Below are positions 3,344 to 21,197 of a stretch of DNA of 27,739 nt, in pieces (the stretch's first letter is position 1; every line of letters begins with the position of its first letter). The stretch comes from a virus. The translations under genes were made by a program, and so were the position numbers. The notes under the pieces were generated by a model. It did no database searches and was not told where the DNA came from. It was given only the letters and a program-made list of their open reading frames with translations. The stretch lies in the IMG/VR virus record IMGVR_UViG_3300030104_000399, positions 1 through 27,739 of that record; one strand, 5' to 3'.

Positions 3344-3868
3344 GTGAATTTAACAGAACGAGAATACAACAAGTTACTTGACATAGCTAAAAACATATGC
3401 AAGACCGAGTTCTGCGAAGACCTGTTGCACGAAGCATTATATGTGTGCTTAAAATACCCAAAAGAAAAAATGGAGTTTATCATAAAAGATGGTAAGCTCT
3501 TTTTTTTTGTAGCTAGAATTATGGCTAATATGTATCATAGTAAAACTAGCACATATTACTACAAGATAGCTAGGTTTTACGACAAGCACACACTACAAGA
3601 TTGCACGAAAATGTCAAAGTTTATATTTACTAATGACAAGCAACAGCAAGAAAACATTGAACTGATAGAGAGTTTGTTAGATAATTTACATTGGTATGAC
3701 AGGGAGTTGTTTAAATTGTATTTTTTCGGTGAGTTAGACGGAAACAAATATACCTTACAATCTTTAGCAGATAAAACAGGTATAAGTAGAAGAAGTATTT
3801 TCACAACAATAAAAAATGTGAAAACTTATATAAAGAATAGAATAAATGAAGCTGAAAGAACTGCTTAA
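3344..3868 (+). CDS. Phage sigma-70-like RNA polymerase sigma factor
   Basis: The 174-aa protein uses a GTG start after a 60-base gap. Residues 25-78 resemble sigma region 2: CEDLLHEAL followed by an aromatic helix FFFVARIMANMY and STYYYKI. Residues 119-166 resemble region 4: DRELFKLYFFGE, then TLQSLADKTGISRRSIFTTI as the helix-turn-helix that would contact a -35 element. The linker is short, as in small ECF-type and Bacteroidota phage sigma factors. It probably redirects host RNA polymerase to phage promoters. The four-copy bipartite motif described elsewhere is its best candidate target. The family call is good, the target an inference. Confidence 0.75.
   Translation: MNLTEREYNKLLDIAKNICKTEFCEDLLHEALYVCLKYPKEKMEFIIKDGKLFFFVARIMANMYHSKTSTYYYKIARFYDKHTLQDCTKMSKFIFTNDKQQQENIELIESLLDNLHWYDRELFKLYFFGELDGNKYTLQSLADKTGISRRSIFTTIKNVKTYIKNRINEAERTA
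3603..3632 (+). promoter_or_regulatory. Copy 1 of the bipartite promoter-like motif, inside the sigma gene
   Basis: GCACGAAA at 3603-3610, an 11-base spacer and TATATTTACTA at 3622-3632 repeat the arrangement seen at 8592, 18401 and 21168. This copy lies within the sigma coding region, about 215 bases before the next gene start, so it could drive the genes from 3846 to the terminase. The upstream box is the most divergent of the four. It may be a coincidence of AT-rich coding sequence. Confidence 0.35.
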
Positions 3869-4076
3869 ATATGCTGACTATGAAATAGAGGGTATTGAGT
3901 TTTACAATGAGTATGGTCAGTTAGAGTATTGTGTTAATTTGTGGGAATGTGAATTAGATGATATAGATGTTGTTTACGGAAGGTGGTTTGAACCTTATGG
4001 AATAATAAAAATAAAGAGATATGAAAAAACCCAATCTAATGGTAAAAGCATACAACCTCCTGAAAGCAAGTTATAA
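3846..4076 (+). CDS. Hypothetical acidic protein (76 aa)
   Basis: The protein is not recognised. It is acidic and aromatic in the first 55 residues (EIEGIEFYNEYGQLEY, ELDDIDVVYGRWFEPYG), with alternating strands, and ends in a short polar tail. It overlaps the sigma gene by 23 bases and the zinc-ribbon gene by 56 bases in another frame, so its last 18 codons double as coding sequence for the next gene. It has no membrane segment. Confidence 0.55.
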   Translation: MKLKELLKYADYEIEGIEFYNEYGQLEYCVNLWECELDDIDVVYGRWFEPYGIIKIKRYEKTQSNGKSIQPPESKL

Positions 4077-4257
4077 AAGGAGTGTTAGTGGTTTCAATGA
4101 CGTGGACGAGGCTACCTTTTATGACAGGGTGCACACTTGCACTAGGTGTGATAAATTTGATTATGTTGAATATGAATGCACAGTGTGTGGCTGCCCAATA
4201 GAAACAAAGGCAAAATGGGAAACGGAAAGATGCCCTAAAGGAAAATGGAATGAATAA
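4021..4257 (+). CDS. Small zinc-ribbon protein
   Basis: The 78-aa protein has CTRC and CTVCGCP motifs in its C-terminal half plus a later Cys in ERCPKGKW. This is a four-cysteine zinc-ribbon layout often seen in small Bacteroidota phage proteins. The N-terminal 35 residues are basic and helical. It probably binds one zinc ion and may contact nucleic acid or another protein. It is co-transcribed with the sigma gene, so a transcriptional accessory role is possible but unproven. Confidence 0.65.
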   Translation: MKKPNLMVKAYNLLKASYKRSVSGFNDVDEATFYDRVHTCTRCDKFDYVEYECTVCGCPIETKAKWETERCPKGKWNE

Positions 4258-4269
4258 TATAATAGTAAT

Positions 4270-4512
4270 ATGGCCAAGCTAACAAAAGAACAAAAAGAAA
4301 AAGTAGCATACATTTGGGAAGGTATCCAAACAGGACAAGCTACAAGTCATCACTACAAGGTAGAGATGATAAAGTTTTATAACGAAATGAATAACACAAG
4401 ATACAAATACACTACCAATTGCAGTAGTTGTTTAAACAATATGTATTTATATTTTGAAAACCTAGTAAAGGCAAAACCTAAAAAAACAAAAAAGAATGGA
4501 AGGAAAAAGTAA
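4270..4512 (+). CDS. Hypothetical basic protein (80 aa)
   Basis: The protein is not recognised. It is helical and basic, with one CSSC pair near residue 55 and a very Lys-rich C-terminus (KAKPKKTKKNGRKK) likely to bind nucleic acid. A C-x2-C pair alone is not enough for a zinc site. Its 3' end overlaps the next gene by 17 bases, in keeping with translational coupling. Confidence 0.6.
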   Translation: MAKLTKEQKEKVAYIWEGIQTGQATSHHYKVEMIKFYNEMNNTRYKYTTNCSSCLNNMYLYFENLVKAKPKKTKKNGRKK

Positions 4513-4771
4513 GTATTATTATGATAGCTGTAGGAATAAAGAATGTGAAAACGAATGCGACAATGATTGCAAAATTCCTGCCTATTATGTAGGTAAAAAA
4601 GGTATGATGGCAAAAGATGTTTGTTGGGAGTTTGATTTATCTTACAACATAGGAACAGCAGTCACATATTTATTAAGGTGTAAACGCAAACACGAAACCC
4701 CAACAAATTGTTTAAAGAAAGCAATTGCACATATAGAGTTTGAAATAAATAATATAGAAAATGAAAGTTAA
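4496..4771 (+). CDS. DUF3310-like protein with Cys-rich N-terminus
   Basis: The protein has 91 aa. Residues 42-88 follow the DUF3310 pattern: a short acidic segment, then FDLSYNIGTAVTYLLRCKRK and the helix NCLKKAIAHIEFEI. DUF3310 is widespread in phages and related to T7 gp1.7, which is linked to nucleotide phosphorylation. The first 30 residues carry five Cys (CRNKECENECDNDC region), an addition that may bind metal. A nucleotide-metabolism role would suit its position just before the DNA modification genes. The enzyme activity is not shown by the sequence. Confidence 0.6.
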   Translation: MEGKSKYYYDSCRNKECENECDNDCKIPAYYVGKKGMMAKDVCWEFDLSYNIGTAVTYLLRCKRKHETPTNCLKKAIAHIEFEINNIENES

Positions 4772-5360
4772 GTTAGTAAAAAGGGATAGTATAAAAATTA
4801 ACCCAAACAACCCAAGAATAATAAAAGACAATAAGTTCAAGAAACTTATAAAAAGTGTAGAGGAATTGCCACAAATGTTAGAGATGCGACCAATAATCGT
4901 AGATGAAGATATGGTTATCCTCGGTGGAAATATGCGTTACCAAGCGTGTGTCCGAGCAGGAATAGTTGAAGTCCCTATAATTCAATACACCAGAAAAGAA
5001 CACGAGAAAACTAAAACAGCAGAAAGCTACGAAGAAACCTGTAGAGAGATTGTTATTAAAGACAATGTAGGGTTCGGTGAATGGGATTGGGATATACTAG
5101 GCAACGAATGGGATAATGTAAAGTTAGGTCAATGGGGTTTAGATGTTTGGCAACCTGAACAAGATGTAGATTACTCTATACTTGACGACCTAGATTTAGG
5201 TGGCGAACTGCACGAAAAAGAAACAGGAGTAAAGAGAGCTATACAGATTGAGTTTGACGGAGAACACTATGAAGAAGCGAACACGCTAATAAACAAAGCA
5301 AGGTCTGAAGGCAAAAATGTAGGACTAATTGTATTAACAGCTATACGCAATAACCAATGA
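4761..5360 (+). CDS. ParB/sulfiredoxin-fold protein of the DNA modification cassette
   Basis: The protein has 199 aa. Residues 5-75 form a ParB-like N-terminal domain: INPNNPRIIKDNKFKKLI, the RPIIVDEDMVILGGNMRYQA segment (GGNMRYQA in the place of the ParB GERR box) and a following helix. The middle has the IIKDNVGFGEWDWDILGNEW block seen in phage ParB-methyltransferase proteins, but no methyltransferase domain follows. Instead a short C-terminal domain (KRAIQIEFDGEHYEEANTLI) ends the protein. The next gene overlaps by 4 bases. It may guide or regulate base modification; partition is unlikely without ParA. Confidence 0.75.
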   Translation: MKVKLVKRDSIKINPNNPRIIKDNKFKKLIKSVEELPQMLEMRPIIVDEDMVILGGNMRYQACVRAGIVEVPIIQYTRKEHEKTKTAESYEETCREIVIKDNVGFGEWDWDILGNEWDNVKLGQWGLDVWQPEQDVDYSILDDLDLGGELHEKETGVKRAIQIEFDGEHYEEANTLINKARSEGKNVGLIVLTAIRNNQ

Positions 5361-6082
5361 TTTGTTACATACCAACAAAAGGAAGACCAAAAACTAATAC
5401 ATATAAATTATTTGAAAATGTTGGTATTGAGGTGTTGCACTTTGTAGAACCACAGGAATATGAAAGCTACAATGTTCCAAACAAAATAAACATAAAGGAA
5501 AACGACAAAGGCATAACCTATGTTAGAAACTATATGTTGAACTACGCAAGAGAAAACAATCACGATTGGATAATTATTTGTGATGATGATGTGAGAGCGT
5601 TTGGGGTTTATAACGGAAAGACTGTAACAAAAGACGCTGGTATTTGGAAAGAAATAAAAAAGGCAGCAGAGAAATTGCCATTTGAGTTGATAGGAATAAA
5701 CTACACGCAACACGCTTGGCACGAAAAAACAAGTTATTCAATAAACAAAAAATTTGCAGAGGTTTGTGTTCTTATGAATGTTGCCAAGATAGATTGGAAC
5801 TACACAGACAACACAAAAGAAGACAGGGATTTTCAATTACAAACAATACAAAATGGACATGGCGTTCTAAGGTTTAACCATTATTGGTTCTCCTGTCCTG
5901 ATGTAGGAACAAACAAAGGAGGGTTACACGACTTATACAAAGCGAAGAAAGATAAACTATGGGCAGAAAACCTAGTTAAGAAATGGCACCCCTACGCAAA
6001 ATTAGTTAGGAAGAAAGATAGGATAGACGCAAAGATTGACATTAAGGGTTACGCATTAAGTTTAAATAAAACAGTAAAATGA
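5357..6082 (+). CDS. TET-associated glycosyltransferase-like protein (GT-A fold)
   Basis: The protein has 241 aa. The N-terminus ICYIPTKGRPKT, the metal-binding cluster CDDDV at residues 75-79 and KEDRDF at 154-159 fit a GT-A glycosyltransferase. The overall pattern matches the TET-associated glycosyltransferase group related to the GREB1 C-terminal domain. Such enzymes are proposed to add sugar to hydroxymethylated bases made by a TET/JBP dioxygenase, and exactly that enzyme is encoded next with a 4-base overlap. The donor sugar cannot be read from sequence. All expected acidic motifs are present. Confidence 0.8.
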   Translation: MICYIPTKGRPKTNTYKLFENVGIEVLHFVEPQEYESYNVPNKINIKENDKGITYVRNYMLNYARENNHDWIIICDDDVRAFGVYNGKTVTKDAGIWKEIKKAAEKLPFELIGINYTQHAWHEKTSYSINKKFAEVCVLMNVAKIDWNYTDNTKEDRDFQLQTIQNGHGVLRFNHYWFSCPDVGTNKGGLHDLYKAKKDKLWAENLVKKWHPYAKLVRKKDRIDAKIDIKGYALSLNKTVK

Positions 6083-6882
6083 AAACAATAGAACTACAAG
6101 AAGTAAAACACAAAGTTAAAGTGGGTGACGAATGCCCTTATTATGAACCAACAATTAAACAAGATTGTTTGTTGCAGAACAACGGAGAGGTAATTGGCTT
6201 TTACATTAACGATATAGACAACTACAACGAAAAGCTAGGAAAGTTGCTTAAAATCGCTAATAAAGAGTTTAGAAGCGACAATGTGCCTAAAGCTACAATG
6301 GTAAGAAGTGCGGCAGTAATGAAAGGTTATAAGGAAACAGGTAAACGAGGCGAAGAAGATTTAGTGGAACAATACTCTACTATATTAGGAAGTGTGGCAC
6401 CTAGACCGCATATGCGTAGACCTTACCCAAACATATCATCAGTTCATAGGGATAAAAAGGCACAAACATTTATTAAAGCAATGTGGGGTTGTTGTGTTGA
6501 AGCAGAAAAAATAATCAAAGAACTAACACCGCACATACACCAAAGGCAAACGGAATTGTTTGAAGACATAAAAAAAGAATGGAGATTCGGCAATATGTTT
6601 ACTAGCAGTATTTCTAACTTCAATATAGCAGCAGGTTTTCATAGAGATACAGGAAATCTAGAAGGAACAGTAAATGTTATATTAACTAAAAGGAATAACG
6701 CTAATGGCGGTTGCTTGAATGTTCCTGATTACAACGCAACATTTGAACAAGCTGACAATTCAATGTTGGTTTATCCTGCATGGAGAAACGTGCATGGAGT
6801 AACACCAATAAAACCAATAAGCAAAGACGGATACAGAAATAGTTTAATCTTCTATCCACTAAAAGCGTTCAAGGGAATATAA
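6079..6882 (+). CDS. TET/JBP-family 2-oxoglutarate/Fe(II) DNA base dioxygenase
   Basis: The protein has 267 aa. The double-stranded beta-helix core lies at about residues 165-262. The iron ligands are H188 and D190 in GFHRDTGN and H239 in RNVHGVTP, and R253 in GYRNSLIFY is the expected 2-oxoglutarate-binding arginine. The spacing fits TET/JBP enzymes, which oxidise 5-methylpyrimidines to hydroxymethyl forms. The preceding glycosyltransferase would then modify the product. No cytosine C5 methyltransferase is in the window, so the methylated substrate must come from a gene outside it, from the host, or from thymine. It ends with a TAATG overlap into the small terminase. Confidence 0.85.
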   Translation: MKTIELQEVKHKVKVGDECPYYEPTIKQDCLLQNNGEVIGFYINDIDNYNEKLGKLLKIANKEFRSDNVPKATMVRSAAVMKGYKETGKRGEEDLVEQYSTILGSVAPRPHMRRPYPNISSVHRDKKAQTFIKAMWGCCVEAEKIIKELTPHIHQRQTELFEDIKKEWRFGNMFTSSISNFNIAAGFHRDTGNLEGTVNVILTKRNNANGGCLNVPDYNATFEQADNSMLVYPAWRNVHGVTPIKPISKDGYRNSLIFYPLKAFKGI

Positions 6883-7232
6883 TGGACAAAAGTAGACACA
6901 TAAAAAAGGAAACAATGTTAAGTGCTTTAGAAAGCAGTTTAGGTGTGGTTACGACAGCTTGTAAAAAAACAGGCATACCTCGTAGCACCTTCTACAAATG
7001 GCTGAAAGAAGATGAGGAATTTGCTAGTCAGGTTAAGGATATAGAAAATGTTAGCTTGGACTTTGCAGAAAGCAAATTGTTTGAACAGATGGCAGACAAC
7101 AATACAAGTGCTACAATCTTTTACCTAAAGACAAAAGGAAGGAAAAGAGGGTATTGGGAAAAGCAACAAATGGATATGACTACTGATGATGAGCCTATAC
7201 AAATCAACATCAAGTTAACAGATGAAGATTAA
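6882..7232 (+). CDS. Terminase small subunit-like helix-turn-helix protein
   Basis: The protein has 116 aa. Residues 18-45 (LGVVTTACKKTGIPRSTFYKWLKE) form a classic helix-turn-helix, followed by a helical oligomerisation segment and the phrase FYLKTKGRKRGYW, typical of phage small terminases. The acidic C-terminus may contact the large subunit. It lies directly before the large terminase with an 11-base overlap, the standard arrangement. It should recognise the packaging site on phage DNA, possibly in modified form given the upstream cassette. Confidence 0.8.
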   Translation: MDKSRHIKKETMLSALESSLGVVTTACKKTGIPRSTFYKWLKEDEEFASQVKDIENVSLDFAESKLFEQMADNNTSATIFYLKTKGRKRGYWEKQQMDMTTDDEPIQINIKLTDED

Positions 7233-8535
7233 CCTTGAGTTTACACCGAAACAAAGCACAGCTATCAGGCACCTGTTTGACAATGAAACAAGCGAGGTGT
7301 TATTCGGTGGTGGTGCAGGTGGTGGCAAATCTTATATTGGTTGTGCTTGGATTATCTACTCTTGTATTAAATACAAAGGTATTAGGTGTCTAATAGGAAG
7401 AAGTAAATTAGACAATTTAAAGAAAACAACACTAAACACATTTTTTGAAATATGCAAAGAGTGGGGTTTAAAATCAAACAAAGATTATCAATTCAATGCA
7501 GGTTCTAATATCATTACTTTTTTCAATGGTTCAGAGGTTATGCTTAAAGACCTTTTCCATTATCCTAGTGATGCTAATTACGATTCCCTTGGTTCTCTTG
7601 AGCTCACTATGGCATTTGTTGATGAGTGCAATCAGATTACACAAAAAGCTAAAGCAATACTATCATCAAGAATAAGGTATAAGTTAGATGAACACAATCT
7701 AATACCTAAATTGTTTATGTCTTGTAACCCTGCTAAAAATTGGGTGTATAACGAGTTTTACCTACCATATAAGCAAAGTGCCTTACCAAAGCATAGAAAG
7801 TTCGTTCAGGCTCTTGCAAGTGATAATATACACATATCTAAACACTACGAAGAACAGCTAATAAAACTTGACGAAATAAGCAAACAAAGATTGCTGTATG
7901 GAAATTGGGAGTATGACGACAGCGAAGACAAGCTGATTGAATACAACGCTATATTGAACATGTTTGAAAACAATTCTTTGCAAGGTGGTGATAAATATAT
8001 ATCAGCAGATATAGCACGTTTCGGAAAAGATAAGACAGTAATTATTTATTGGAATGGTTTAAGGGCAGAGAAAATAAAAACATTTGACACTAACACAATA
8101 ACGGAAGCAGCAAATGAAATACGAGAAATACAAAGAGCAGAAAATGTTCCACTTGGAAACATTATTGTTGATGATGATGGTATTGGTGGTGGTGTTCGTG
8201 ATATACTACGCTGTAAGCCATTTGTAAACAACGGAAAGGTAATCAATAATGAGAACTACCAAAACCTAAAAACACAATGCTACTACAAGTTGGCAGAATA
8301 TGTAAACGCAAACAAAATATATTTACAAACAAATAATACGCAAATAAAAGATTATCTTACAAAAGAATTAGAACAAGTGCGTAGAGATAAAATAGACAAG
8401 GACACAAAGTTGGCTATACTTTCTAAAGAAAAAGTAAAACAAATAATAGGTAGGTCGCCTGACTACTCTGACGCTTTAATGATGCGTATGTGGTATGAGT
8501 TAAAACCAAACGCAGGGAAGTATTATATACAATAA
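7222..8535 (+). CDS. terL: Terminase large subunit
   Basis: The protein has 437 aa, a normal length. The Walker A motif GGGAGGGKS is at residues 29-37, and the Walker B AFVDEC with D134 and E135. SCNPAKNWVYNEFY near 167-180 is typical of phage terminases. The RNase H-like nuclease domain begins near residue 258 with ISADIARFGKD (D263) and continues with IIVDDDGIGGG (D317-D319). It is an ATP-driven motor that cuts concatemeric DNA and packs it into the prohead. The gene appears complete and is followed by a hairpin and a promoter-like motif. Confidence 0.93.
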   Translation: MKINLEFTPKQSTAIRHLFDNETSEVLFGGGAGGGKSYIGCAWIIYSCIKYKGIRCLIGRSKLDNLKKTTLNTFFEICKEWGLKSNKDYQFNAGSNIITFFNGSEVMLKDLFHYPSDANYDSLGSLELTMAFVDECNQITQKAKAILSSRIRYKLDEHNLIPKLFMSCNPAKNWVYNEFYLPYKQSALPKHRKFVQALASDNIHISKHYEEQLIKLDEISKQRLLYGNWEYDDSEDKLIEYNAILNMFENNSLQGGDKYISADIARFGKDKTVIIYWNGLRAEKIKTFDTNTITEAANEIREIQRAENVPLGNIIVDDDGIGGGVRDILRCKPFVNNGKVINNENYQNLKTQCYYKLAEYVNANKIYLQTNNTQIKDYLTKELEQVRRDKIDKDTKLAILSKEKVKQIIGRSPDYSDALMMRMWYELKPNAGKYYIQ

Positions 8536-8536
8536 A

Positions 8537-8576
8537 AGAGGGCAGCTACAAAAACAATGAAAATGAGCCACCCTCT
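8537..8576 (+). terminator. Hairpin after the large terminase gene
   Basis: AGAGGG at 8537-8542 pairs with CCCTCT at 8571-8576, and GCT/AGC adds three more pairs across a 2x2 internal loop; the loop holds about 18 bases. No U-tract follows, only ATTTAAA, so it is not a classic intrinsic terminator. It begins right after the terminase stop and ends 15 bases before the promoter-like motif, so it may end or process the upstream transcript. Confidence 0.4.
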
Positions 8577-8591
8577 ATTTAAAGCAAATAC

Positions 8592-8621
8592 GCACCAAAT
8601 CTAAACAATTTATATTTACTA
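8592..8621 (+). promoter_or_regulatory. Copy 2 of the bipartite promoter-like motif, before the tail operon
   Basis: GCACCAAA at 8592-8599, an 11-base spacer, then TATATTTACTA at 8611-8621. It ends 19 bases before the ATG of the tail chaperone, in one of the few real gaps between genes. The same boxes with the same spacing occur at 18401 and 21168. It probably starts the tail-gene transcript. Confidence 0.6.
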
Positions 8622-8640
8622 ATAGATAACTTAAAAGAAA

Positions 8641-9315
8641 ATGTTATTAACACTTAACGATAAAGAATATTTAGTTCCACAAAAATGGACACAAGTTAGT
8701 TTAGAAAGCTATCAGAAACTTATGCAGTATGTAGGTGATGAAGGAGATGAACACACAAAATCGTTGACTACTATACACTCCTTAACAGGTGCACCAATAG
8801 ATGTTTTAGAGAAGTGTAAAAAGAGTGATATACAAAAGTTACTTAAAGCAGTTTCTAACCTTTTAGAAGTAAAGGTAAACACAACGCTAAATATGGTAAT
8901 AGAAGTAGAGGGTGTAGAGTATGGTTTTCACCCTAACCTACGAGAAATAACATTTGCAGAGTTTGTTGATTTAGATAATTATTTGTCTGAACCTTGGGAA
9001 AACATGCACAGGATAATGTCGGTTTTATACAGACCTATAACAACGCAAAACAAAAAGAAATACAAGATAGAAGAATACGATAGCACAAAGTGTATGCAGA
9101 CAGCAGAAGTGTTTAAAAAAGCGTTAAGTGTAGCAACAGTAAACGGTGCAAGCAATTTTTTTTTGACTATCGCAGGGGAGTATCTGAGCGTTTTGCAATC
9201 ATCTTTGAGCAAGAAACAAAAGAAGATGTTGAAGGATACAGAGATTCAGAACAAGAGTTTAGTAAAAAATGGGGTTGGTATGGAGTTATCTACAACCTCG
9301 CAAATGGCGAAGTAA
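8641..9315 (+). CDS. Tail assembly chaperone, short (unshifted) form
   Basis: The 224-aa product begins after a 105-base gap with a promoter-like motif. Its first part (VPQKWTQVSLESYQKLMQYV) and middle (EYGFHPNLREITFAEFVDLD) follow a pattern I associate with Bacteroidota phage tail chaperones. The end of the family pattern, W-G-W-Y-x-x-x-Y-x-L-A, is found in the -1 frame at 9270-9404. Ribosomes shifting at A-AAA-AAT (9264-9270) would therefore make a 254-aa fusion, like lambda G/GT. The last residues of this unshifted form look like low-information read-on. The chaperone role is inferred from position and frameshift layout. Confidence 0.7.
   Translation: MLLTLNDKEYLVPQKWTQVSLESYQKLMQYVGDEGDEHTKSLTTIHSLTGAPIDVLEKCKKSDIQKLLKAVSNLLEVKVNTTLNMVIEVEGVEYGFHPNLREITFAEFVDLDNYLSEPWENMHRIMSVLYRPITTQNKKKYKIEEYDSTKCMQTAEVFKKALSVATVNGASNFFLTIAGEYLSVLQSSLSKKQKKMLKDTEIQNKSLVKNGVGMELSTTSQMAK
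9264..9270 (+). other. Probable -1 ribosomal frameshift site of the tail chaperone
   Basis: The heptamer AAAAAAT reads A-AAA-AAT in phase with the upstream ORF and is followed by GGGG. A -1 slip gives KSLVKK then WGWYG, restoring the expected family sequence. A T9 run at 9156-9164, also in phase, is an alternative site, but using it would replace the hydrophobic FFLTIAGEYLSVLQ stretch that looks genuine. Confidence 0.6.
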
Positions 9316-9404
9316 CAAAAATGAATGATGTATTAAAATTAACAGCAGATGAGGTTTTTACTTTTTTATGTTATTCAAAAGATTTAAATACAATTAGAAA
9401 ATGA
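9270..9404 (+). CDS. -1 frame extension of the tail chaperone (T-like domain)
   Basis: The 44 residues downstream of the slip site, from WGWYGVIYNLANGEVTKMND to the end, form a coherent helical domain. It matches the C-terminal part I know from Bacteroidota phage tail chaperone fusions, including DEVFTFLCY. It has no suitable start codon of its own; the first in-frame ATG is at 9321. Its stop is TGA at 9402-9404, overlapping the next start as ATGA exactly like genuine gene junctions here. Together these features support expression by frameshifting from the 8641 ORF. A sequencing indel would give the same picture. Confidence 0.65.
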   Translation, partial: WGWYGVIYNLANGEVTKMNDVLKLTADEVFTFLCYSKDLNTIRK

Positions 9405-9883
9405 GTTTTGTAAACCAAGCAGGATTAACACAGAAAAACGCAACGCTATTAAATATAATTAAATTATATGAAGATATAGCGAGTGCCAATTCATATATAC
9501 ACAACGCAACATTTGGCGATATATTTGAAATAGATTTAAACGAAACAGATTATGCGTTATCACACTTATCTATAGAAAGTGCTAATTATACTAACCACGA
9601 ATTAACATACTCTTTAAGGTTATATGTAATGGACTTGGTAAGCAAAGATGAGGGCAACGAAAATGATGTGTTAAGCGACACGCTACAAGTGATTGGTGAT
9701 TTTATCAGTCAGTTTAAGCACAGCACAAGTTTCGGTGATACGGAACAAGATTATAGAATGAACGACAATGTAAGCTGCACACCCTTTACAGAGCGTTTTG
9801 ATAACGAGGTAAGTGGGTGGTCAGCAGATATAAGTATAACAGTCAGCTTCAACGCTAGTGCGTGTAGTGGTGACATAATTTAA
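9401..9883 (+). CDS. Probable minor tail / tail completion protein
   Basis: The protein has 160 aa. It has a helical N-terminus (ATLLNIIKLYEDIASAN), a central beta region around LTYSLRLYVMDLVSKDEGN, the helix DVLSDTLQVIGDFISQF, and a C-terminal EVSGWSADISITVSF strand pair. This layout recurs in Bacteroidota phage tail operons and resembles tail terminator or completion proteins in size and order. I see no diagnostic motif. The gene follows the frameshifted chaperone by ATGA overlap. Confidence 0.6.
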   Translation: MSFVNQAGLTQKNATLLNIIKLYEDIASANSYIHNATFGDIFEIDLNETDYALSHLSIESANYTNHELTYSLRLYVMDLVSKDEGNENDVLSDTLQVIGDFISQFKHSTSFGDTEQDYRMNDNVSCTPFTERFDNEVSGWSADISITVSFNASACSGDII

Positions 9884-9890
9884 TAAATAA

Positions 9891-10346
9891 ATGGCAACGA
9901 CAGTATCAACAGCAACATTAACAGTAAACATTGATGAGGAAATTACTCTAAATGGTGTTACTTACAACAAAACAACACAACAAGAAATACCTGATGTAAG
10001 TCAGTATTTTAGTAGAGTGTATTCTTTAAAAGCAAGCACAACACATACAGTGGTTGAATTTGCGTCAGACCCAACAGGAAATAAGTTTGACACAGAAGAT
10101 TTTAAATATATGCGTATTACTAACCTTGATGATACAAACGCTATCAACCTAACATTTGCAGAAGAAAGCACAGTAGGTTGTGGTTTTCAATTAGATGCAG
10201 GAGAAAGTTTTGTAATATCTGCATTAGTAGTAGACAGCAACACAAGTGGTGCAGCAATTACATCATTAGGACACTCTATAACTGACTTGTTTATAAGAAC
10301 AGGTGCAGCAGAAACAGATGTAGAAATTGTAGTAGCGTTAGCGTAA
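9891..10346 (+). CDS. Probable structural protein (151 aa)
   Basis: The composition is rich in Thr, Ser, Ala and Val with many predicted beta strands (STATLTVNIDEEITLNGVTYN, FKYMRITNLDD). A GESFVISALVVDSNTSG segment looks like a beta-sandwich. There are no catalytic motifs. Its position between a completion-type protein and an HK97 gp10-like protein points to a virion or tail component. I cannot assign a family. Confidence 0.6.
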   Translation: MATTVSTATLTVNIDEEITLNGVTYNKTTQQEIPDVSQYFSRVYSLKASTTHTVVEFASDPTGNKFDTEDFKYMRITNLDDTNAINLTFAEESTVGCGFQLDAGESFVISALVVDSNTSGAAITSLGHSITDLFIRTGAAETDVEIVVALA

Positions 10347-10870
10347 TGTTAGTTAACACCAAAAAGTTAATGGATACTTTTGCTAAAAAAGTTATCAAAC
10401 AATCTATCCGTAATTTAGAAAAACAAGACAAGATTGACAGTGGCAAGTTAGCAAAAAGTTTAAATTACAATCTTGAAGTATACCCTAGTGGTGCTTTAGA
10501 ATTAAATTTCCAAATGCCTGATTATGGATTATACCAAGACAAAGGTGTTAAAGGTAGTCAAAGTGGGCGTAAAGCATACAAATCGCCATACAAATTTAAA
10601 GGCAAAAACATTAAACAAGGTGTTATTGAGAGTTGGATTAAACGGAAAGGTATACAAGGTAGAGATAAAAAAGGTAGGTTTATTACACGCAAATCATTAG
10701 CATTTGTTATTGGGAGAAGTATAGCGTTATATGGCATACCTGCTACAAGGTTTTTTAGTAAAGCATTTAGACAGCATTACAGAAGGTTGCCTGAACAATT
10801 TGCAAAGGTATATGCAAGTGATGTAGAGAAATTTATAAGACAAACAACAGCAGACATATTAAAGAAATAA
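10346..10870 (+). CDS. HK97 gp10-like neck / tail completion protein
   Basis: The 174-aa basic protein has the features of gp10-type completion proteins: a helical N-terminus, GKLAKSLNYNLEVYPSGALE followed by DYGLYQDKGVKGSQSG, which matches the D-Y-x-x-Y-x-x-x-G pattern of this group, and a later FVIGRSIALYGIPATRFFSKAF. Such proteins sit between the head and the tail tube. It starts in a TAATG overlap. The family similarity is moderate. Confidence 0.65.
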   Translation: MLVNTKKLMDTFAKKVIKQSIRNLEKQDKIDSGKLAKSLNYNLEVYPSGALELNFQMPDYGLYQDKGVKGSQSGRKAYKSPYKFKGKNIKQGVIESWIKRKGIQGRDKKGRFITRKSLAFVIGRSIALYGIPATRFFSKAFRQHYRRLPEQFAKVYASDVEKFIRQTTADILKK

Positions 10871-10873
10871 GAC

Positions 10874-14745: not shown

Positions 14746-15512
14746 TGGCTAGAGATATATTTCAAATAACAGAACAGGTAATTACTTTTGTTGGTGACAA
14801 AGGTGAAGAAGTATCAGGCGATAGTGCAGATTGCAGAATGGTAGGTGGTAAGTATATTTCTGATGGTAGAGGTGGTGGAACTTGCTATTTAAAAAATGTA
14901 GAATTTAGCAATAGCAACTTTACCAACAATAGGAATGTTATAGGTCAAGGAAACACCATACACTCAAAAGCACTTAACAACAATGTTACAGGCGATTACA
15001 ATACAATAGGTAATGTATCAAACACAAACACCGTAGGAAAATTTGCTAAAACAACAAGGCATGGTGAGTTTACAAGGGCAAACGCTTCTGCATTAGGAAG
15101 GTCACAAAAAAGCGTTTTATTCTACGAGGGCGTTACCAACTCTTCTGTAAGTGCTCCTGAAATATTTTTAGAGGGTATAACTAATAAAAGATTAGAAGTA
15201 GACGAATCTTTTGGAATGTCTACTATAGCTTTAGATATACACACCGTAGCCAAGTATACTGATGCAGGCAATGATGGTTCAGGTTATCTGCACAGCAAAG
15301 CAGTATTTCAAAGCACAGGGGGTGTATTAGCTATTAACGGAAGACATACTTCGATATATGAAGAAACTTTAGTCATAGGTAACTTAACTTTAGCAGCAGT
15401 AAGTGGAACTCCTGACTATATAAGTTTTACTTTATCAGGCGATAGGTCAGGTAGGTCTATGGCTTGGAGTGTAATAGTAAATGTATATGAAATTAGAACA
15501 GAAGTAGTATAA
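14745..15512 (+). CDS. Adhesin-like tail fibre / receptor-binding candidate
   Basis: The protein has 255 aa. Residues 45-105 contain short Asn/Gly repeats (NVIGQGNTIHS, NNVTGDYNTIGN, NTNTVGKF) like the left-handed beta-roll head of YadA-type trimeric adhesins, which suggests a trimeric fibre. The N-terminus (ARDIFQITEQVITFVG) is a likely attachment domain, and the C-terminal 90 residues are beta-rich. It lies between the tail hub and the tape measure. The fibre assignment rests on the repeats and position; no enzymatic motif is visible. Confidence 0.55.
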   Translation: MARDIFQITEQVITFVGDKGEEVSGDSADCRMVGGKYISDGRGGGTCYLKNVEFSNSNFTNNRNVIGQGNTIHSKALNNNVTGDYNTIGNVSNTNTVGKFAKTTRHGEFTRANASALGRSQKSVLFYEGVTNSSVSAPEIFLEGITNKRLEVDESFGMSTIALDIHTVAKYTDAGNDGSGYLHSKAVFQSTGGVLAINGRHTSIYEETLVIGNLTLAAVSGTPDYISFTLSGDRSGRSMAWSVIVNVYEIRTEVV

Positions 15513-15658
15513 TGGAAAAAAACACATTTGAATTAGTAGGGGTAAATATGATGATGGGGTTTATAAACCTTAAACAAATATTGCCTTTAATTAGTGAGTT
15601 AAAGATAAAAACAAAGCATAACGACATAATACGAGGCAAATGGCACAAGAAGAAGTAA
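15512..15658 (+). CDS. Small hypothetical protein between fibre and tape measure (48 aa)
   Basis: The ORF begins in the TAATG of the preceding gene's end and overlaps the tape measure start by 19 bases, filling what would otherwise be a 127-base gap. It encodes MEKNTFELVGVNMMMGFINL and continues to a basic tail, RGKWHKKK. It is mostly helical with a slightly hydrophobic middle. The junctions match the genome's style, so I believe it is translated. The function is unknown. Confidence 0.5.
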   Translation: MEKNTFELVGVNMMMGFINLKQILPLISELKIKTKHNDIIRGKWHKKK

Positions 15659-17361
15659 TATTAAAGTTACAAGCCGAAGTAGGAAATGCTACTAAACAGC
15701 TTGAAGAGGTTAAAAAAGGTGTTGAGGGTATAGGCAAAAGCACAGATGGTGCAGAAAAAGGCATTAAAGGAATGGCTAAAGGCATCAAAGGTGTTGGTTT
15801 AGCTATTAAGGCAGCAGGTATAGGTTTGCTATTAAAAGGGTTGCAGTTGCTTGGTGATGCTTTTATGAAAAATCAAAAGGTAACAAATCTTTTTAACACA
15901 GTATTTACAGCACTTTCCAGGACATTAAATGATTTTGTAAATTTTTTAGTAAACAATACAGGCACAGTAATAGATATATTTAAAGATATATTTGAAAACC
16001 CACAAGAAAATTTAAAAGCATTAGGTAAAGCTATAAAAGATAACATAATAGAACGCTTTAATAGTGCAATAGATGCGTTAGGTTTTTTAGCAGATGCGTT
16101 TAAAAAGGTATTTGAAGGTGATTTTAAAGGTGCGTTAGAAAGTGCAAAAGAAGCAGGTAAAGAATATGTAGATGTATTAACAGGTGTTGATGGCACAGTT
16201 GATAAGGTAGTAGAAACTACTAAAAAAGTAGTTGAAGCAACTAAAGAATATGCAGTTAATACATATAATGCAGCAGCAGCACAAATACAATTAAACAATG
16301 CAGCACAAATATCAGCAGCACAGCTAACAGGACTTGTAGAAGAAAATGATAGATTAGCAGAAACGCAAAGGCAAATACGAGATAACGAAAATGCTTCATT
16401 TGAAGAAAGGATTGCAGCAAATAATAAGCTAAAAGAAATACTAGAAAAACAGAAAGAAGATATGTTGGCATTAGCTGACATAAATATTGCAGCAGCACAA
16501 GCCGAATTAGATGCTTTAGATAATACAGAGAACAGGGTAGCACTACAAGATGCTATAAACGAGAAGAAAGGTATAGAGGCACAGATTACAGGGTTTATGT
16601 CAGAGCAAATGACTAACGCTGTATCGCTAGAAAATGAAAGGTTAGAGGTTGTAAATAGTGTCAACGCAGAAATGATGACTGCTAGACAAAGGGAGATTGA
16701 GGATGTAAGGCTGCATTACCAAGAGCAAATCAAACTTGCTAAAAAAGCAGGTATGGATACTGTTGGTTTAGAAAAACAAAAATCCGAAGCGTTAAGAAAA
16801 ATAAAATCAGCACAATTACAAGCTGACCTAGATGCAACAGCAGGAATGTTAAGTAGTGCAGCAGCATTACAAAAAGAAGGAACAGCAGGTTGGAAAGCCA
16901 CAAAAATTGCAGAAACAGTAGTAAGCACATATAGTGGTGCACAGAAAGCATACGAGAGTATGGTTGGTATACCTATCATAGGACCGACACTAGGTGCAAT
17001 CGCAGCAGGTATAGCAGTAGTAGCAGGTTTAAAACAAGTTCAAACAATTAGAAATACACCGATACCTGAAATGGCTATGGGTGGTATAGTAGGTGGTTAT
17101 GGTAGTGGCACTAGCGATAGCGTTAATGCAAGATTAAGCAGGGGTGAAAGCGTTATCAATGCAAAGTCAACAAGGATGTTTAAACCACTTTTAAGCAACA
17201 TAAATCAAGCAGGTGGTGGAGTTGGGTTCGCAGATGGTGGAACGCTTGATACAGGAAGTGCAGGTATGACTACAGGAGTTGTTAAAGCGTATGTAGTTGC
17301 TGATGAAATGACAAATGAACAAGATAGATTAAATAATATTAGAAGAAAAGCATCATTATAA
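15640..17361 (+). CDS. Tail tape measure protein
   Basis: The 573-aa protein has the usual tape measure build. It starts with a helical, Lys/Glu-rich coiled coil (KLQAEVGNATKQLEEVKKGV). Hydrophobic Gly/Ala-rich segments lie near residues 50-72 (GVGLAIKAAGIGLLLKGLQL) and 445-470 (IPIIGPTLGAIAAGIAVVAG). Coiled coils (ENDRLAETQRQIRDNENASF) fill about 230-400, and a Gly-rich C-terminus (AMGGIVGGYGSGTSD) is typical of the family. It sets tail length; by the usual 1.5 angstrom per residue the tail would be roughly 85 nm. It is the largest helical protein in the block. Confidence 0.85.
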   Translation: MAQEEVILKLQAEVGNATKQLEEVKKGVEGIGKSTDGAEKGIKGMAKGIKGVGLAIKAAGIGLLLKGLQLLGDAFMKNQKVTNLFNTVFTALSRTLNDFVNFLVNNTGTVIDIFKDIFENPQENLKALGKAIKDNIIERFNSAIDALGFLADAFKKVFEGDFKGALESAKEAGKEYVDVLTGVDGTVDKVVETTKKVVEATKEYAVNTYNAAAAQIQLNNAAQISAAQLTGLVEENDRLAETQRQIRDNENASFEERIAANNKLKEILEKQKEDMLALADINIAAAQAELDALDNTENRVALQDAINEKKGIEAQITGFMSEQMTNAVSLENERLEVVNSVNAEMMTARQREIEDVRLHYQEQIKLAKKAGMDTVGLEKQKSEALRKIKSAQLQADLDATAGMLSSAAALQKEGTAGWKATKIAETVVSTYSGAQKAYESMVGIPIIGPTLGAIAAGIAVVAGLKQVQTIRNTPIPEMAMGGIVGGYGSGTSDSVNARLSRGESVINAKSTRMFKPLLSNINQAGGGVGFADGGTLDTGSAGMTTGVVKAYVVADEMTNEQDRLNNIRRKASL

Positions 17362-18101
17362 TGGAAAAGAAAACAACAAAAATCGTAGAATTAGTTATAG
17401 ATGAAAGTAACGAAGAATTGGCTATTGACGCAATATCTCTTGTTACTGAACCTGCCATAGCACAGGACTTCGTCTATTTTAACAAAACAAAACATAACCT
17501 AACATTAGCAAAGGTAGATGAGGAACAAAGGTTGCTTGTATCACCTGCACTAATACCTAACAAGCAGATATATCGTTTTGACGCAGATACTAACCAAGAA
17601 TACTATGTATACTTCACTGCTGAAACAGTAAAAAAAGCTAGTGAAATGTATTTGAAGCATAACAACAATAATAATGCGACTGTGCAACACGAAAACAAAG
17701 TTACAGGCGTGCATACTGTAGAAAGTTGGATTATACAAGATGCTGAAATGGACAAATCAAGATTATATGGTTTTGATTTACCTAAAGGCACGTGGATGGT
17801 GAGTATGAAAATAGAAAACCAAGAAATAATAGATAGAATAAAAGAGGGTGAATTAAAAGGATTGTCTATTGAGGGTTATTTTATTGACCGCATGCAGAAA
17901 ATGAGCAAATTTGAAAAAGTAGGCGATATAGATGGTATGCCTGTTTTTGATACAGTAGAAGAAGCAGAGGCAGTAGCTAAAGAAATGGGTTGCGAAGGAT
18001 ATCACGAACACGAACTGAATGGAAAGACTGTGTATATGCCTTGTTCAGACCACGATATTATTTCAGCATTAGACGAAATACTAAAAAAAAAAGTAAACTA
18101 G
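17361..18101 (+). CDS. XkdF-like prohead serine protease, short form
   Basis: The 246-aa product matches the XkdF phage serine protease pattern: LVSPALIPNKQIYRF near 59-73, H110 in TVQHENKV, VESWIIQDAEMDKS, PKGTWMVSMKIENQEIIDRI and S169 in GLSIEGYF. H110 and S169 are the likely catalytic pair. It would trim the scaffold and capsid during head maturation, and it lies next to those genes. The reading frame ends in A10 followed by GTAAACTAG. An intact second domain continues in the -1 frame, so a longer fused form is probably made as well. Confidence 0.75.
   Translation: MEKKTTKIVELVIDESNEELAIDAISLVTEPAIAQDFVYFNKTKHNLTLAKVDEEQRLLVSPALIPNKQIYRFDADTNQEYYVYFTAETVKKASEMYLKHNNNNNATVQHENKVTGVHTVESWIIQDAEMDKSRLYGFDLPKGTWMVSMKIENQEIIDRIKEGELKGLSIEGYFIDRMQKMSKFEKVGDIDGMPVFDTVEEAEAVAKEMGCEGYHEHELNGKTVYMPCSDHDIISALDEILKKKVN
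18083..18092 (+). other. A10 slippery tract joining the protease to its -1 frame domain
   Basis: Ten A's read ctA-AAA-AAA-AAA-gta in the protease frame, giving the perfect slippery heptamer A-AAA-AAA in phase, three codons before the TAG at 18099-18101. A -1 shift leads into SKLESYTDYPQG. RNA polymerase slippage on A10 could also produce the fused message. Confidence 0.65.
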
Positions 18102-18400
18102 AAAGTTATACTGATTACCCACAGGGTGCTACTAACAACGCAAAAAGAGCAATAAAATGGAAGGAGGAAAATGGAAGTAGCTGTGGAACACGTGTGGGTT
18201 GGACAAGAGCTAACCAAATTGCAAATAGAAAACCTATATCACGAGACACTATTGCAAGAATGGCTAGTTTCAAAAGACACCAACAACACAAAGATGTGCC
18301 ATACTCCGAAGGTTGTGGAGGAATTATGTGGGACGCGTGGGGAGGAAGTTCAGGAATCAATTGGGCGATAAGCAAACTGAAAGAAATTGATGGCGAATAA
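18092..18400 (+). CDS. -1 frame C-terminal domain of the XkdF-like protease
   Basis: About 102 residues carry a compact domain: YPQGATNNAKRAIKWKEENG, then CGTRVGWTRANQIANRKPIS, RDTIARMASFKRHQQHK and GGIMWDAWGGSSGINWAISK. I know this domain as a C-terminal part of phage head proteins. In this frame the only start before the domain is a TTG at 17990 inside the protease gene, which yields an Arg-rich nonsense leader; the first ATG (at about 18261) would cut the domain in half. It is therefore probably expressed only as a fusion of about 346 aa through the A10 tract. Its function is unknown. Confidence 0.65.
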   Translation, partial: SKLESYTDYPQGATNNAKRAIKWKEENGSSCGTRVGWTRANQIANRKPISRDTIARMASFKRHQQHKDVPYSEGCGGIMWDAWGGSSGINWAISKLKEIDGE

Positions 18401-18430
18401 GTAACAAAACAAAACATATTATATTTACTA
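18401..18430 (+). promoter_or_regulatory. Copy 3 of the bipartite promoter-like motif, before the head operon
   Basis: GTAACAAA at 18401-18408, an 11-base spacer and TATATTTACTA at 18420-18430. It begins directly after the stop of the protease fusion and ends 25 bases before the ATG at 18456. It probably gives extra transcription of the scaffold and major capsid genes, which are needed in large amounts. Confidence 0.65.
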
Positions 18431-18455
18431 ATAAACACACCTAAATCTTACCGAG

Positions 18456-18902
18456 ATGAGCAAACTATATTTTGAGAAATTAAATACTGAAAAGTTAGCT
18501 AAACTAAAAGAAGTTAAGTTAGCTAAACTGCAAGAGATTAAATTAAGTTTAATAGACGAAGCAAAAACTGTTTTCGGTCAAAGTGCAAAAGTTCTTGCAG
18601 AAATGGAGTCAACAATACCTCAAGCAGAACAATTAGCAGAAAGATTCAAGGATGTTCAAAAAGATTCAACTGAAATGTTCAAAAGAATTGACACTTTGAT
18701 AGACGATGAAAGTGAAGCTTATGATGAAATAGAGTTGATGAAAGAACAATTAGAAAAAAGTGCTGAAGCAATAGGGTTAGATGCGAGTGATATAAAGGAA
18801 TATAAAGATTTAGATAGTTTGTTAGATGATATTTCTGACAGAAGTTCTAAACTTGAAGATATGTTCCAACTATTTCAAGCAATTTTTAATGCGAAAATTT
18901 AA
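18456..18902 (+). CDS. Coiled-coil head-associated protein (148 aa)
   Basis: The protein is highly charged and fully helical. Residues 9-31 contain two near-identical heptad units (KLAKLKEV, KLAKLQEI), encoded by a 14-base direct repeat 21 bases apart (AAGTTAGCTAAACT). A long Glu-rich coiled coil follows (EMESTIPQAEQLAERFKDVQ). It has no catalytic motif. It is first in the transcript that also carries the scaffold and capsid genes, so it may be a second scaffold-like or assembly factor. This is inferred from position. Confidence 0.6.
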   Translation: MSKLYFEKLNTEKLAKLKEVKLAKLQEIKLSLIDEAKTVFGQSAKVLAEMESTIPQAEQLAERFKDVQKDSTEMFKRIDTLIDDESEAYDEIELMKEQLEKSAEAIGLDASDIKEYKDLDSLLDDISDRSSKLEDMFQLFQAIFNAKI

Positions 18903-18917
18903 TAATTATAAATAACT

Positions 18918-19559
18918 ATGGACTTAAAAACTAGAATTAGAGTTGCCCTAGGTATTGAGGAGGAAACTACTCAATTAGCTTATGAAGGCAAATTAGCAGA
19001 CGGAACAATAATCGTTTCAGAAGCAGATGCCCTAGCAGAGGGTGTCGCAGTTAGTGTTCTTGTAGAAGACGGAACACAAATGCCTTTACCTGTTGGCGAA
19101 TACGAAACAGAAGACGGTGTAAAATTTGTTGTTGAAGAAGAGGGTGTTATTGCATCTATGGAAGAAGAAGCAGAGGAAGAAGAAGACGATATGGGTAAAG
19201 ACAAAGATGAAGACGATTATGGTGACGACAAAGAAGAAATGTCTAACGATAACGCTGAATTGTTTGCAGAGATAGGTGCTGTTGTTAAAGAACTTTTAGA
19301 AGAAGTTAGAAACGACATATCACGCCTTAACGCTGAATTAGATGAGTTAAGAGGTGAAAACCTAGCGAAAGACGAAAATATCGCTGAATTACAAGAAGAA
19401 AACACAAATTTATCTGCACAGGTAAAAGAGTTAGGTGAAGCACCTGCTGACAACCCTGTGAAGCTAAATAAGTTTAATAAAGAGAAAGTAGTTTTATCTC
19501 GTTCAGAGTATAACAAACTTTCAAGGAAAGAAAAATTTATATATAACCTTAATAAATAA
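18918..19559 (+). CDS. Scaffolding-like head protein
   Basis: The protein has 213 aa. The first 75 residues form a beta-rich domain (YEGKLADGTIIVSEADALAE, GTQMPLPVGEYETEDG) that resembles a small N-terminal domain of Bacteroidota phage head proteins. Residues 78-110 are an extreme acidic stretch (MEEEAEEEEDDMGKDKDEDD). A long coiled coil follows (LEEVRNDISRLNAELDELRG, IAELQEENTNLSAQVKELGE) and then a basic end. An acidic region plus coiled coil plus a C-terminal basic hook directly upstream of the capsid gene is the usual scaffold arrangement. The XkdF-like protease would be its processor. Confidence 0.7.
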   Translation: MDLKTRIRVALGIEEETTQLAYEGKLADGTIIVSEADALAEGVAVSVLVEDGTQMPLPVGEYETEDGVKFVVEEEGVIASMEEEAEEEEDDMGKDKDEDDYGDDKEEMSNDNAELFAEIGAVVKELLEEVRNDISRLNAELDELRGENLAKDENIAELQEENTNLSAQVKELGEAPADNPVKLNKFNKEKVVLSRSEYNKLSRKEKFIYNLNK

Positions 19560-19566
19560 TTAAAAG

Positions 19567-20484
19567 ATGGGATTTTCAATTACTTCAAACTACGCAGGTG
19601 AACACGCAGGTCAGTATATTTCTGCTGCACTTCAATCTGCTGATAGTTTACAATACTTGACTGTTTTAGAAAATGTTAAGTATAAGAGAAACATCACAAA
19701 AGTAGCAACATCAGGAATGATTGCTGATGCTACTTGTGATTTCACAGATGCAGGAACACTTACTTTAACAGAAAGAGTTCTTAACCCAAAGGAACTACAA
19801 ATCAATGTAGACCTTTGTAAAAAAGATTTACTAGCTGATTGGCAAGCTGCTCAAATGGGTGCAGGTGCACACAACAGAGATATGTCTAACGACTTCACTG
19901 CTTTTGTTATGTCGCACTTATCTGATACTATTGCTGACCATGTTGAAACAAACATTTGGCAAGGTCTTGATGCTTCAGCAGGACAATTTACAGGCTTCTT
20001 ACACGCAGGTAACGGATACTTCGAGAATGATACTGCTATCGTAGAAGCTACTAACACAGGTGGTGCTGGTGTTGCATACACAGCAGGAACTGTTATCGCT
20101 AACCTACAATTGATTGCAGCATCTATTCCTGCAGCAGTTTTAGGAAAAGATGATTTATACATCTATATGTCAACTAGCGTATACAGATTATACATACAAG
20201 CAATGTCTACATTAGGATATGTTAACGCATACCACATGGCACAAGATTATGTTCCAATGTTTGAAGGAATTAAAATCGCTGTTTGTCCAGGAATCCCTAA
20301 TGATATGATGTGTGCTGCTCAAAAATCTAACCTGTTCTTCGGAACTGACTTGGTTTCTGACACTACAACTATCAAAATGCTTGATATGTCTGAACTAGAT
20401 GGTTCTGACAATGTTCGTGTAGTAGCTAAATTTACTGCAGGAGTTCAGCACGCACAAGGTGGCGACATTGTAAGATTAGACTAA
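19567..20484 (+). CDS. Major capsid protein
   Basis: The protein has 305 aa, a normal length for an HK97-fold capsid protein lacking a delta domain. The start MGFSITSNYAGEHAGQYISA, the middle DHVETNIWQGLDASAGQFTG and the end FTAGVQHAQGGDIVRLD follow patterns of Bacteroidota phage capsids. There are alternating helices and strands with few charged runs. It uses different codons from its neighbours, with more C-ending codons (AAC, ATC, GAC), as expected for the most strongly expressed phage gene. It directly follows the scaffold gene and is followed by a hairpin. Confidence 0.8.
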   Translation: MGFSITSNYAGEHAGQYISAALQSADSLQYLTVLENVKYKRNITKVATSGMIADATCDFTDAGTLTLTERVLNPKELQINVDLCKKDLLADWQAAQMGAGAHNRDMSNDFTAFVMSHLSDTIADHVETNIWQGLDASAGQFTGFLHAGNGYFENDTAIVEATNTGGAGVAYTAGTVIANLQLIAASIPAAVLGKDDLYIYMSTSVYRLYIQAMSTLGYVNAYHMAQDYVPMFEGIKIAVCPGIPNDMMCAAQKSNLFFGTDLVSDTTTIKMLDMSELDGSDNVRVVAKFTAGVQHAQGGDIVRLD

Positions 20485-20499
20485 TAATAACTAGCTTAA

Positions 20500-20525
20500 A
20501 GCAAGGGGTGTCAAAACCCTTTGCT
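20500..20525 (+). terminator. Hairpin after the major capsid gene
   Basis: AGCAAGGG (20500-20507) pairs with CCCTTTGCT (20517-20525) across a nine-base loop, with one bulged T at 20520. No U-tract follows, so it is not a textbook terminator. It could stabilise the capsid message, act as a processing site, or partly terminate to keep capsid expression above that of the downstream gene. Confidence 0.5.
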
Positions 20526-20551
20526 AAAAAGCACTTAAAACATATAATAAT

Positions 20552-21103
20552 ATGGCTTGTGAATTAACGAAAGGTAGAGGATTGGATTGCAAAGATGTAA
20601 TGGGTGGCGTTAAAGCTATCTATTTCGCACAGCATGAAGATGCTACTATCACAACAACAGGGGGTGCGGTTAGTGATTTAGACTTGACTACTAATTTATT
20701 CAAATACACATTACCAAGAGGCACAGGTAGTTTTACTGAAACTATCCAACCAAGTGTTGAAAATGGCACTGTGTTCTACGAACCATCAGTTACAATTATG
20801 CTACATAAGATGACTGTTGGCGATAGAAACGAAATTAAATTATTAGCACAAAACAGATTGTTAGTTTTTATTCAAACTAATGTCAAGGACGCTAATGGCA
20901 AAGATAAGATTTGGTGTTTAGGTGCAGATAATGGTTTAGAATTATCAGCAGGAACATCACAATCAGGTGCAGCATTTGGTGATATGAATGGATATAATTT
21001 AACCTTCACAGGGGCAGAGGCAGAACCTTGCTTATTTGTTCAGGCATACACTACAGCACCATTTGATAATGCAGGATTTACTGTAACAGTAACAGCATCA
21101 TAG
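20552..21103 (+). CDS. Probable major tail tube protein
   Basis: The protein has 183 aa. It opens ACELTKGRGLDCKDVMGGVK, a start I associate with tail tube proteins of Bacteroidota phages, and continues as a beta-rich domain (VTIMLHKMTVGDRNEIKLLA, NRLLVFIQTNVKDANG). It ends GFTVTVTAS. It sits alone between the capsid hairpin and a strong intrinsic terminator, which suits a highly expressed structural protein. Tail tube is the best guess; another abundant virion protein is possible. Confidence 0.6.
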   Translation: MACELTKGRGLDCKDVMGGVKAIYFAQHEDATITTTGGAVSDLDLTTNLFKYTLPRGTGSFTETIQPSVENGTVFYEPSVTIMLHKMTVGDRNEIKLLAQNRLLVFIQTNVKDANGKDKIWCLGADNGLELSAGTSQSGAAFGDMNGYNLTFTGAEAEPCLFVQAYTTAPFDNAGFTVTVTAS

Positions 21104-21130
21104 TCCAATAAGGACACAATATATTTGATT

Positions 21131-21156
21131 AAAGGCAGGTTTTTCCTGTCTTTTTT
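21131..21156 (+). terminator. Rho-independent terminator after the tail-tube-like gene
   Basis: AAAGGCAGG (21131-21139) pairs with CCTGTCTTT (21145-21153), with one G-U pair, around a TTTTT loop, and the T-run continues to 21156. This is the clearest intrinsic terminator in the window. It ends the head transcript and is followed 12 bases later by a promoter-like motif. Confidence 0.85.
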
Positions 21157-21167
21157 CGTATATAAGC

Positions 21168-21197
21168 GTAACAAATCATTGTTTTTTATATTTACTA
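21168..21197 (+). promoter_or_regulatory. Copy 4 of the bipartite promoter-like motif
   Basis: GTAACAAA at 21168-21175, an 11-base spacer and TATATTTACTA at 21187-21197. It lies directly after the intrinsic terminator and 8 bases before the GTG at 21206. The short distance implies a nearly leaderless message. It probably drives the decoration, portal, connector and lysis genes. Confidence 0.65.

Follow-up and report, generated by a model that had tools for sequence, protein, structure and literature searches.

The stretch analysed here, referred to as the window, is a 27,739-nucleotide DNA of a virus (positions 1 to 27,739 of IMG/VR record IMGVR_UViG_3300030104_000399), and it belongs, with its relatives, to a family of marine bacteriophages, probably of Flavobacteria. 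At 3344-3868 on the forward strand it carries a gene with a GTG start for a 174-amino-acid protein resembling sigma factors of the extracytoplasmic function (ECF) type, and it contains four forward-strand copies of a two-box motif that is predicted to act as the phage late promoter. The first copy (3603-3632; GCACGAAA-N11-TATATTTACTA) falls within the sigma gene itself, where the linker is encoded, and is the predicted driver of the terminase (ter) block, in which the small and large subunits are encoded at 6882-8535 and terL at 7222-8535 (forward strand; PHROG). The second (8592-8621) lies just past terL and before g8641, whose ATG is 19 nt past the core, and the third (18401-18430) precedes the g18456/g18918/capsid block, the ATG of which is 25 nt past the core. 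This block includes a forward-strand gene at 19567-20484 that matches phrog_11320, a family of non-annotated function, and that probably encodes the major capsid protein, given its position and its synteny with the cultured phage P12024S. The fourth copy (21168-21197) precedes the genes that run up to the portal gene (22629-24500; PHROG and Pfam), with a possible GTG start at 21208.

The core TATATTTACTA occurs exactly four times, at 3622, 8611, 18420 and 21187, in the whole 30,043-base virus record containing the window, with no copy on the reverse strand and no match to the reversed-pattern control. In each case an upstream box (GCACGAAA, GCACCAAA, GTAACAAA and GTAACAAA, respectively) is placed exactly 11 bases before the core. 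When up to two mismatches were allowed, GYAMSAAA-N11-TATATTTACTA was found four times against 0.03 expected, and none of 100 dinucleotide shuffles reached four matches, so that the fixed-spacing motif put forward in a preliminary description of this DNA was borne out, and the comparison with shuffled sequence suggested there showed enrichment. A scoring matrix trained on intergenic sites from relatives and the window gave the three intergenic copies 45, 39 and 37 bits, in map order, and the sigma-internal copy 20 bits, whereas the next best window position scored 12.5 and the best over 20 shuffles 6.1. Non-coding sequence accounts for just 3.6% of bases 85-27266, yet the sites at 8592-8621, 18401-18430 and 21168-21197 fall entirely within such gaps, in line with the three intergenic copies noted previously; the copy at 3622 is within the sigma open reading frame. 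It had further been claimed that two copies directly follow a hairpin or terminator, and this holds for the copy at 21187, which is immediately preceded by an intrinsic-terminator-like hairpin and T run (21131-21153, forward strand; terminator scan), whereas no such element was detected ahead of 8611 or 18420. The largest gap in 85-27266 (25064-25390; 327 bases) is devoid of late-motif copies.

The model of the sigma-like protein obtained with AlphaFold2 (AF2), using a 32-sequence alignment, shows two domains with a predicted local distance difference test score (pLDDT) of 76: an N-terminal helical domain resembling region 2 and a C-terminal helix-turn-helix resembling region 4, joined by a disordered linker. 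No region 1 or 3 domains are present in its 174 residues, and the region 2-4 linker appears flexible (residues about 75-97 with pLDDT below 50). The top Foldseek matches in the PDB are sigma factors, among them sigma32, the ECF factors sigmaL, sigmaE and SigW, and region 4 domains on their own, such as that of sigmaA; those to sigma32, sigmaL and sigmaE span the whole length, with E values of 0.01-0.2. The region 4 domain aligned over about 58-70 residues with a Foldseek probability of 1.00, a root-mean-square deviation of 2-3 Å and a best E value of about 0.1. When PDB sequences were searched with a profile of the sigma family, nothing was returned at E≤1. In PHROG, a match to RNA polymerase sigma factors was obtained, the best match being phrog_36, annotated as 'transcriptional regulator'. 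Pfam Sigma70_r2 was detected, weakly, in 3 of 32 family members, and above the cut-off in the P12024S counterpart P12024S_33. The earlier assignment of a sigma-70-like factor with regions 2 and 4, weak by Pfam, finds support in the fold and in P12024S_33, region 2 being tentative; the 3344-3868 protein would presumably be an active sigma factor.

Loci from relatives were gathered using sigma, capsid and terL proteins as queries. In the first 237 loci, exact cores numbered 113 on the forward strand, 26 on the reverse strand and 1 in the reversed control, and the forward cores cluster before g8641, g18456/g18918, g21208 or a counterpart, and inside the sigma gene. An unbiased scan of all 2.9 million IMG/VR contigs for exact GYAMYAAA-N11-TATATTTACTA yielded 64 distinct sites, of which 56 belong to this phage family, every one at the four homologous places, while the other 8 are scattered among unrelated contigs. 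The scan of the full genome and related phages proposed in the preliminary description thus revealed a family-specific motif recurring on one strand before virion operons, as late promoters do. In clade A, the group of the window, the site before g8641 is kept and the intergenic motif lies 10-25 nt from the gene start; the sites at 18401-18430 and 21168-21197 are likewise kept in relatives. In two clade D loci (L035 and L041), a hairpin-like stretch, AGCCCACTTTTGCAAGTGAGCCC in the reverse-strand reading, is found just before the sigma gene and adjoins a reverse-strand TATATTTACTA. A capsid search in bacterial genomes found none.

Where the sigma protein is only 35-45% identical to that of the window, other cores occupy the same places. 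The clade B core, TATATTTTATA (94 forward and 5 reverse copies), is found before the counterparts of g8641, g18918 and g21577 and inside the sigma gene; the clade C core, TCTATTATATA (28 forward and 1 reverse), precedes g8641 and parB, the latter replacing the sigma-internal site; and the clade D core is TATATATTA. Core type requires 5 changes, for a minimum of 4, on a sigma tree from which the linker was left out, compared with 7 changes and a more interspersed pattern on the capsid tree (32 loci with a typed core), and close capsids can be accompanied by unlike promoters, as in L125 (B) versus L115, L116 and L119 (D). Since vertical descent would also fit core type to the sigma tree, mosaic genomes offer a better test. 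Two genomes with a terL 85% (L036) and 87% (L176) identical to that of the window carry sigma and promoter of type B and of type D, respectively. Likewise, L097 and L125, with capsids 76% and 74% identical, are of type B for both, and L094 (capsid 77% identical) is of type D for both, in contrast to L177 (capsid 73% identical), in which sigma and promoter are both of type A. Because mosaics with a window-like terL or capsid carry promoters matching their own sigma, the motif tracks the sigma gene and not the neighbouring genes. This linkage to the cognate sigma across relatives, as would be seen for a late promoter, agrees with the expectation raised earlier that motif and sigma gene are conserved together.

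Further support came from Nonlabens phage P12024S, which infects the flavobacterium Persicivirga and was reached through its capsid homologue (26% identity), direct tblastn of the window sigma against named phages having given none. Its Sigma70_r2 gene, P12024S_33 (20595-21074), is located upstream of terL. Four forward CGTTA[AC]TATA copies (at 167, 3019, 5400 and 23949) each lie two bases before an ATG, three of them with TAAAACAAA upstream; this rather loose core is not rare on the opposite strand (4 matches), the ATG-adjoining arrangement being restricted to the four forward copies. No internal motif copy was found in the P12024S sigma gene. CGT has been described as the -10 signature of flavobacterial ECF promoters (PMC9723704). 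The element abuts the start codon in P12024S and in clades B and C, which predicts leaderless or nearly leaderless late mRNAs in these phages.

The copy inside the sigma gene lies where the sigma alignment has the most gaps, in the hypervariable linker between regions 2 and 4. In 21 clade A genes with identities down to 59%, its codons TTT ATA TTT ACT AAT are synonymously invariant, whereas 60 of 73 conserved columns of these genes do vary synonymously. At the same spot, clade B sigma genes carry TTA TAT TTT ATA, that is the clade B core in a different reading frame, and clade D sigma genes TTA TAT ATT AAT A, likewise in a frame other than that of clade A. With a matrix trained solely on clade B intergenic sites, this spot ranked first in the sigma genes of clade B other than those of sub-clade B2, and also in L187. 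The leucine codon of the site is TTA in 21 of 21 cases, as compared with a usage of 38%. These cross-clade, codon and matrix tests were used since per-genome synonymous shuffles of the site were weakly significant, the significance from a single genome being weak because the codons are AT-rich anyway. Together, the comparisons mark the internal copy as a DNA-level element, a point that the preliminary description had missed. The site might instead reflect nothing but a conserved peptide, KFIFTN, as the same residues are encoded throughout clade A, and both the lower matrix score and the weak shuffles are compatible with this; nevertheless, five successive codons frozen at the synonymous level in the gappiest part of the protein, together with the recurrence of clade B and D cores in other frames and the first rank given by the clade B intergenic matrix, make a peptide without a promoter unlikely.

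Of the explanations considered for the motif as a whole, the favoured one (probability about 0.86, on the basis of sequence comparison) is that it constitutes a phage late promoter read by host core polymerase together with the small ECF-like sigma of the phage, as the preliminary description had proposed for a dedicated sigma/promoter pair; family specificity, covariation of the core with sigma clade and the mosaic genomes argue for this pairing. The upstream YAMYAAA box would be a -35-like element contacted by region 4 and TATATTTACTA a -10-like element contacted by region 2, the three intergenic copies would start the tail-side, head and portal blocks, which are presumed to be late genes, and the internal copy would start the ter block. 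Several observations weigh against this reading. The AF2 predicted template modelling score is 0.43, no Foldseek match of the window protein reaches E≤0.001, and its Pfam region 4 and region 2 matches are weak and below the cut-off. The internal copy scores 20 bits compared with 37-45 for the intergenic ones, and the internal site is degenerate in sub-clade B2 apart from L187 and absent in clade C sigma genes. Furthermore, the covariation, as read from sequence, is a linkage to the sigma locus and not a binding result.

The most serious competitor, itself quite improbable, is that the sites are host-type promoters, variants of TAnnTTTG read by host sigmaA, with the phage protein perhaps acting as an activator of the RinA/ArpU type. 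The clade A core TATATTTA does resemble the flavobacterial sigmaA -7 box, TAnnTTTG at -12 to -5 (PMC9723704), and the phrog_36 annotation would suit an activator. The window sites nevertheless lack the final G of TAnnTTTG and, as stated in the preliminary description, have no upstream TTG at the expected distance, and so depart from the sigmaA pattern of a -33 TTG and a -7 TAnnTTTG; the clade C and P12024S cores are still more different. The window shows no enrichment of TTG-N19-TAnnTTTG, with 2 matches for 1.25 expected, and a generic sigma-70 promoter scan gave no excess over shuffles. Moreover, cores change radically between clades (TCTATTATATA, CGTTAATATA) along with the phage sigma, and each half of the fold is similar to a sigma region. 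A role within mRNA leaders, as a signal for translation start or for RNA processing, is very unlikely: the element does abut the start codon in P12024S and in two of the clades (B and C), but in clade A it is 10-25 nt away, one copy is intragenic without a nearby start, two boxes are held at fixed spacing, and some copies have terminator-like sequences directly upstream. Just as improbable is a function in recombination or packaging or as a boundary that separates gene modules, since the motif, despite the recombination of the modules around it, is always on a single strand and before operons, has one copy in a coding linker, and follows in type the sigma and not the adjoining module.

The sigma gene also holds a second element, likewise missed in the preliminary description. 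An intrinsic-terminator-like hairpin of up to 12 bp followed by T9 was located by terminator scan at 3472-3508 (forward strand), inside the sigma coding sequence and 94 bases upstream of the internal promoter copy; with that at 21131-21153, it is one of only two clear forward terminators in the window. Hairpin and T9 are present in 21 of 21 clade A sigma genes, in the 5 of these genes that were tested the hairpin is stronger than in every one of 60 synonymous shuffles per gene, and 4 of 10 pairs show two-sided changes, with 97.5% of cells paired against 38-55% when the pairing is slid. Some clade B sigma genes have a hairpin and T7 elsewhere in the gene. Taken together, these comparisons point to a probable intragenic terminator; slippage is an alternative role for the T9. 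A second T9 run occurs within g8641 (9156-9164) without a strong hairpin and is a possible transcriptional slippage site. The intragenic hairpin would halt early transcripts inside the sigma gene and thereby delay or limit sigma production. On a broader proposal, for and against which the odds seem about even, the sigma gene would form a built-in switch in which the terminator in its own coding sequence cuts off most early transcripts before full-length sigma is made. With sigma accumulating, the late promoter a little downstream, in DNA for the unconstrained linker, would restart transcription of the packaging genes; the linker peptide would be shaped by the promoter, its reading frame shifting as promoter specificity changes between lineages.

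Elsewhere in the window, adjoining genes for a ParB-like protein, a TET-associated glycosyltransferase (TAGT) and a Tet/JBP 2OG-Fe oxygenase (4761-6882) probably form a DNA base hypermodification cassette. A long stretch without an annotated gene at 27267-28030 of the virus record (G000:C1; about 1268-2030 of L237) may be an origin region or specify a non-coding RNA; it has an N gap as well as AT tandem repeats, a pair of similar cagattggggnntnaaaacc-like stretches and, near its end, a terminator-like hairpin. The end of the record, at about 29855-30043, encodes a protein gene that nearly duplicates the ssb-like one at 306 (window 306-500), which suggests circularity or strain overlap.

With clades A-D and P12024S, the family appears to supply at least five natural sigma/promoter pairs of diverging specificity, from which one could learn how promoters are read by sigma domains and perhaps derive orthogonal expression tools for Bacteroidota. 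For many marine phages not in culture, the predicted promoters also outline the late-gene operons, and the sigma gene is a case in which selection seems to have acted on both a promoter and a terminator within the coding sequence of a regulator. Full-text literature searches, which did not cover subscription papers, returned no description of a sigma/late-promoter pair in Bacteroidota phages, consistent with the earlier remark that the motif is unreported for such phages; nor did they return a two-domain Bacteroidota-phage version, lineage-diverging specificity or regulatory DNA inside the sigma gene.

Phage sigma factors with late promoters are a known class: T4 gp55 and SPO1 gp28 and gp33-34 are late phage sigmas that redirect the RNA polymerase of the host towards late promoters, which are short and AT-rich. 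By analogy, the window phage would combine a phage-encoded sigma with late promoters; it differs from T4 and SPO1 in the 174-residue region 2 plus region 4 protein, the two-box promoter, the phage size of about 30 kb, the probable flavobacterial hosts and the promoter copy within the sigma gene. Similarity to ECF (group IV) sigmas such as SigW, sigmaE and Mycobacterium tuberculosis sigmaL is seen in the fold and in a two-domain build resembling regions 2 and 4 joined by a linker, as well as in the AAC-type -35-like box of the phage sites and in the P12024S core, which begins CGTTA (compare the CGT box; PMC9723704). Unlike in ECF systems, no anti-sigma gene was identified, the linker is hypervariable, and the clade A-D cores are TATA-like rather than CGT. 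P12024S and P12024L (Inhavirus) share with the window phage the capsid homologue and a region-2 sigma gene upstream of terL, and P12024S has a late motif of its own ahead of the genes that follow terL and of the capsid and portal blocks, as in the window phage, from which it differs in its core and in the sigma gene, where no copy was found. Finally, RinA/ArpU regulators are also small phage late-gene regulators encoded near terminase genes, but the promoter-like spacing of the two boxes and the modelled sigma-like fold favour a sigma factor over an activator.

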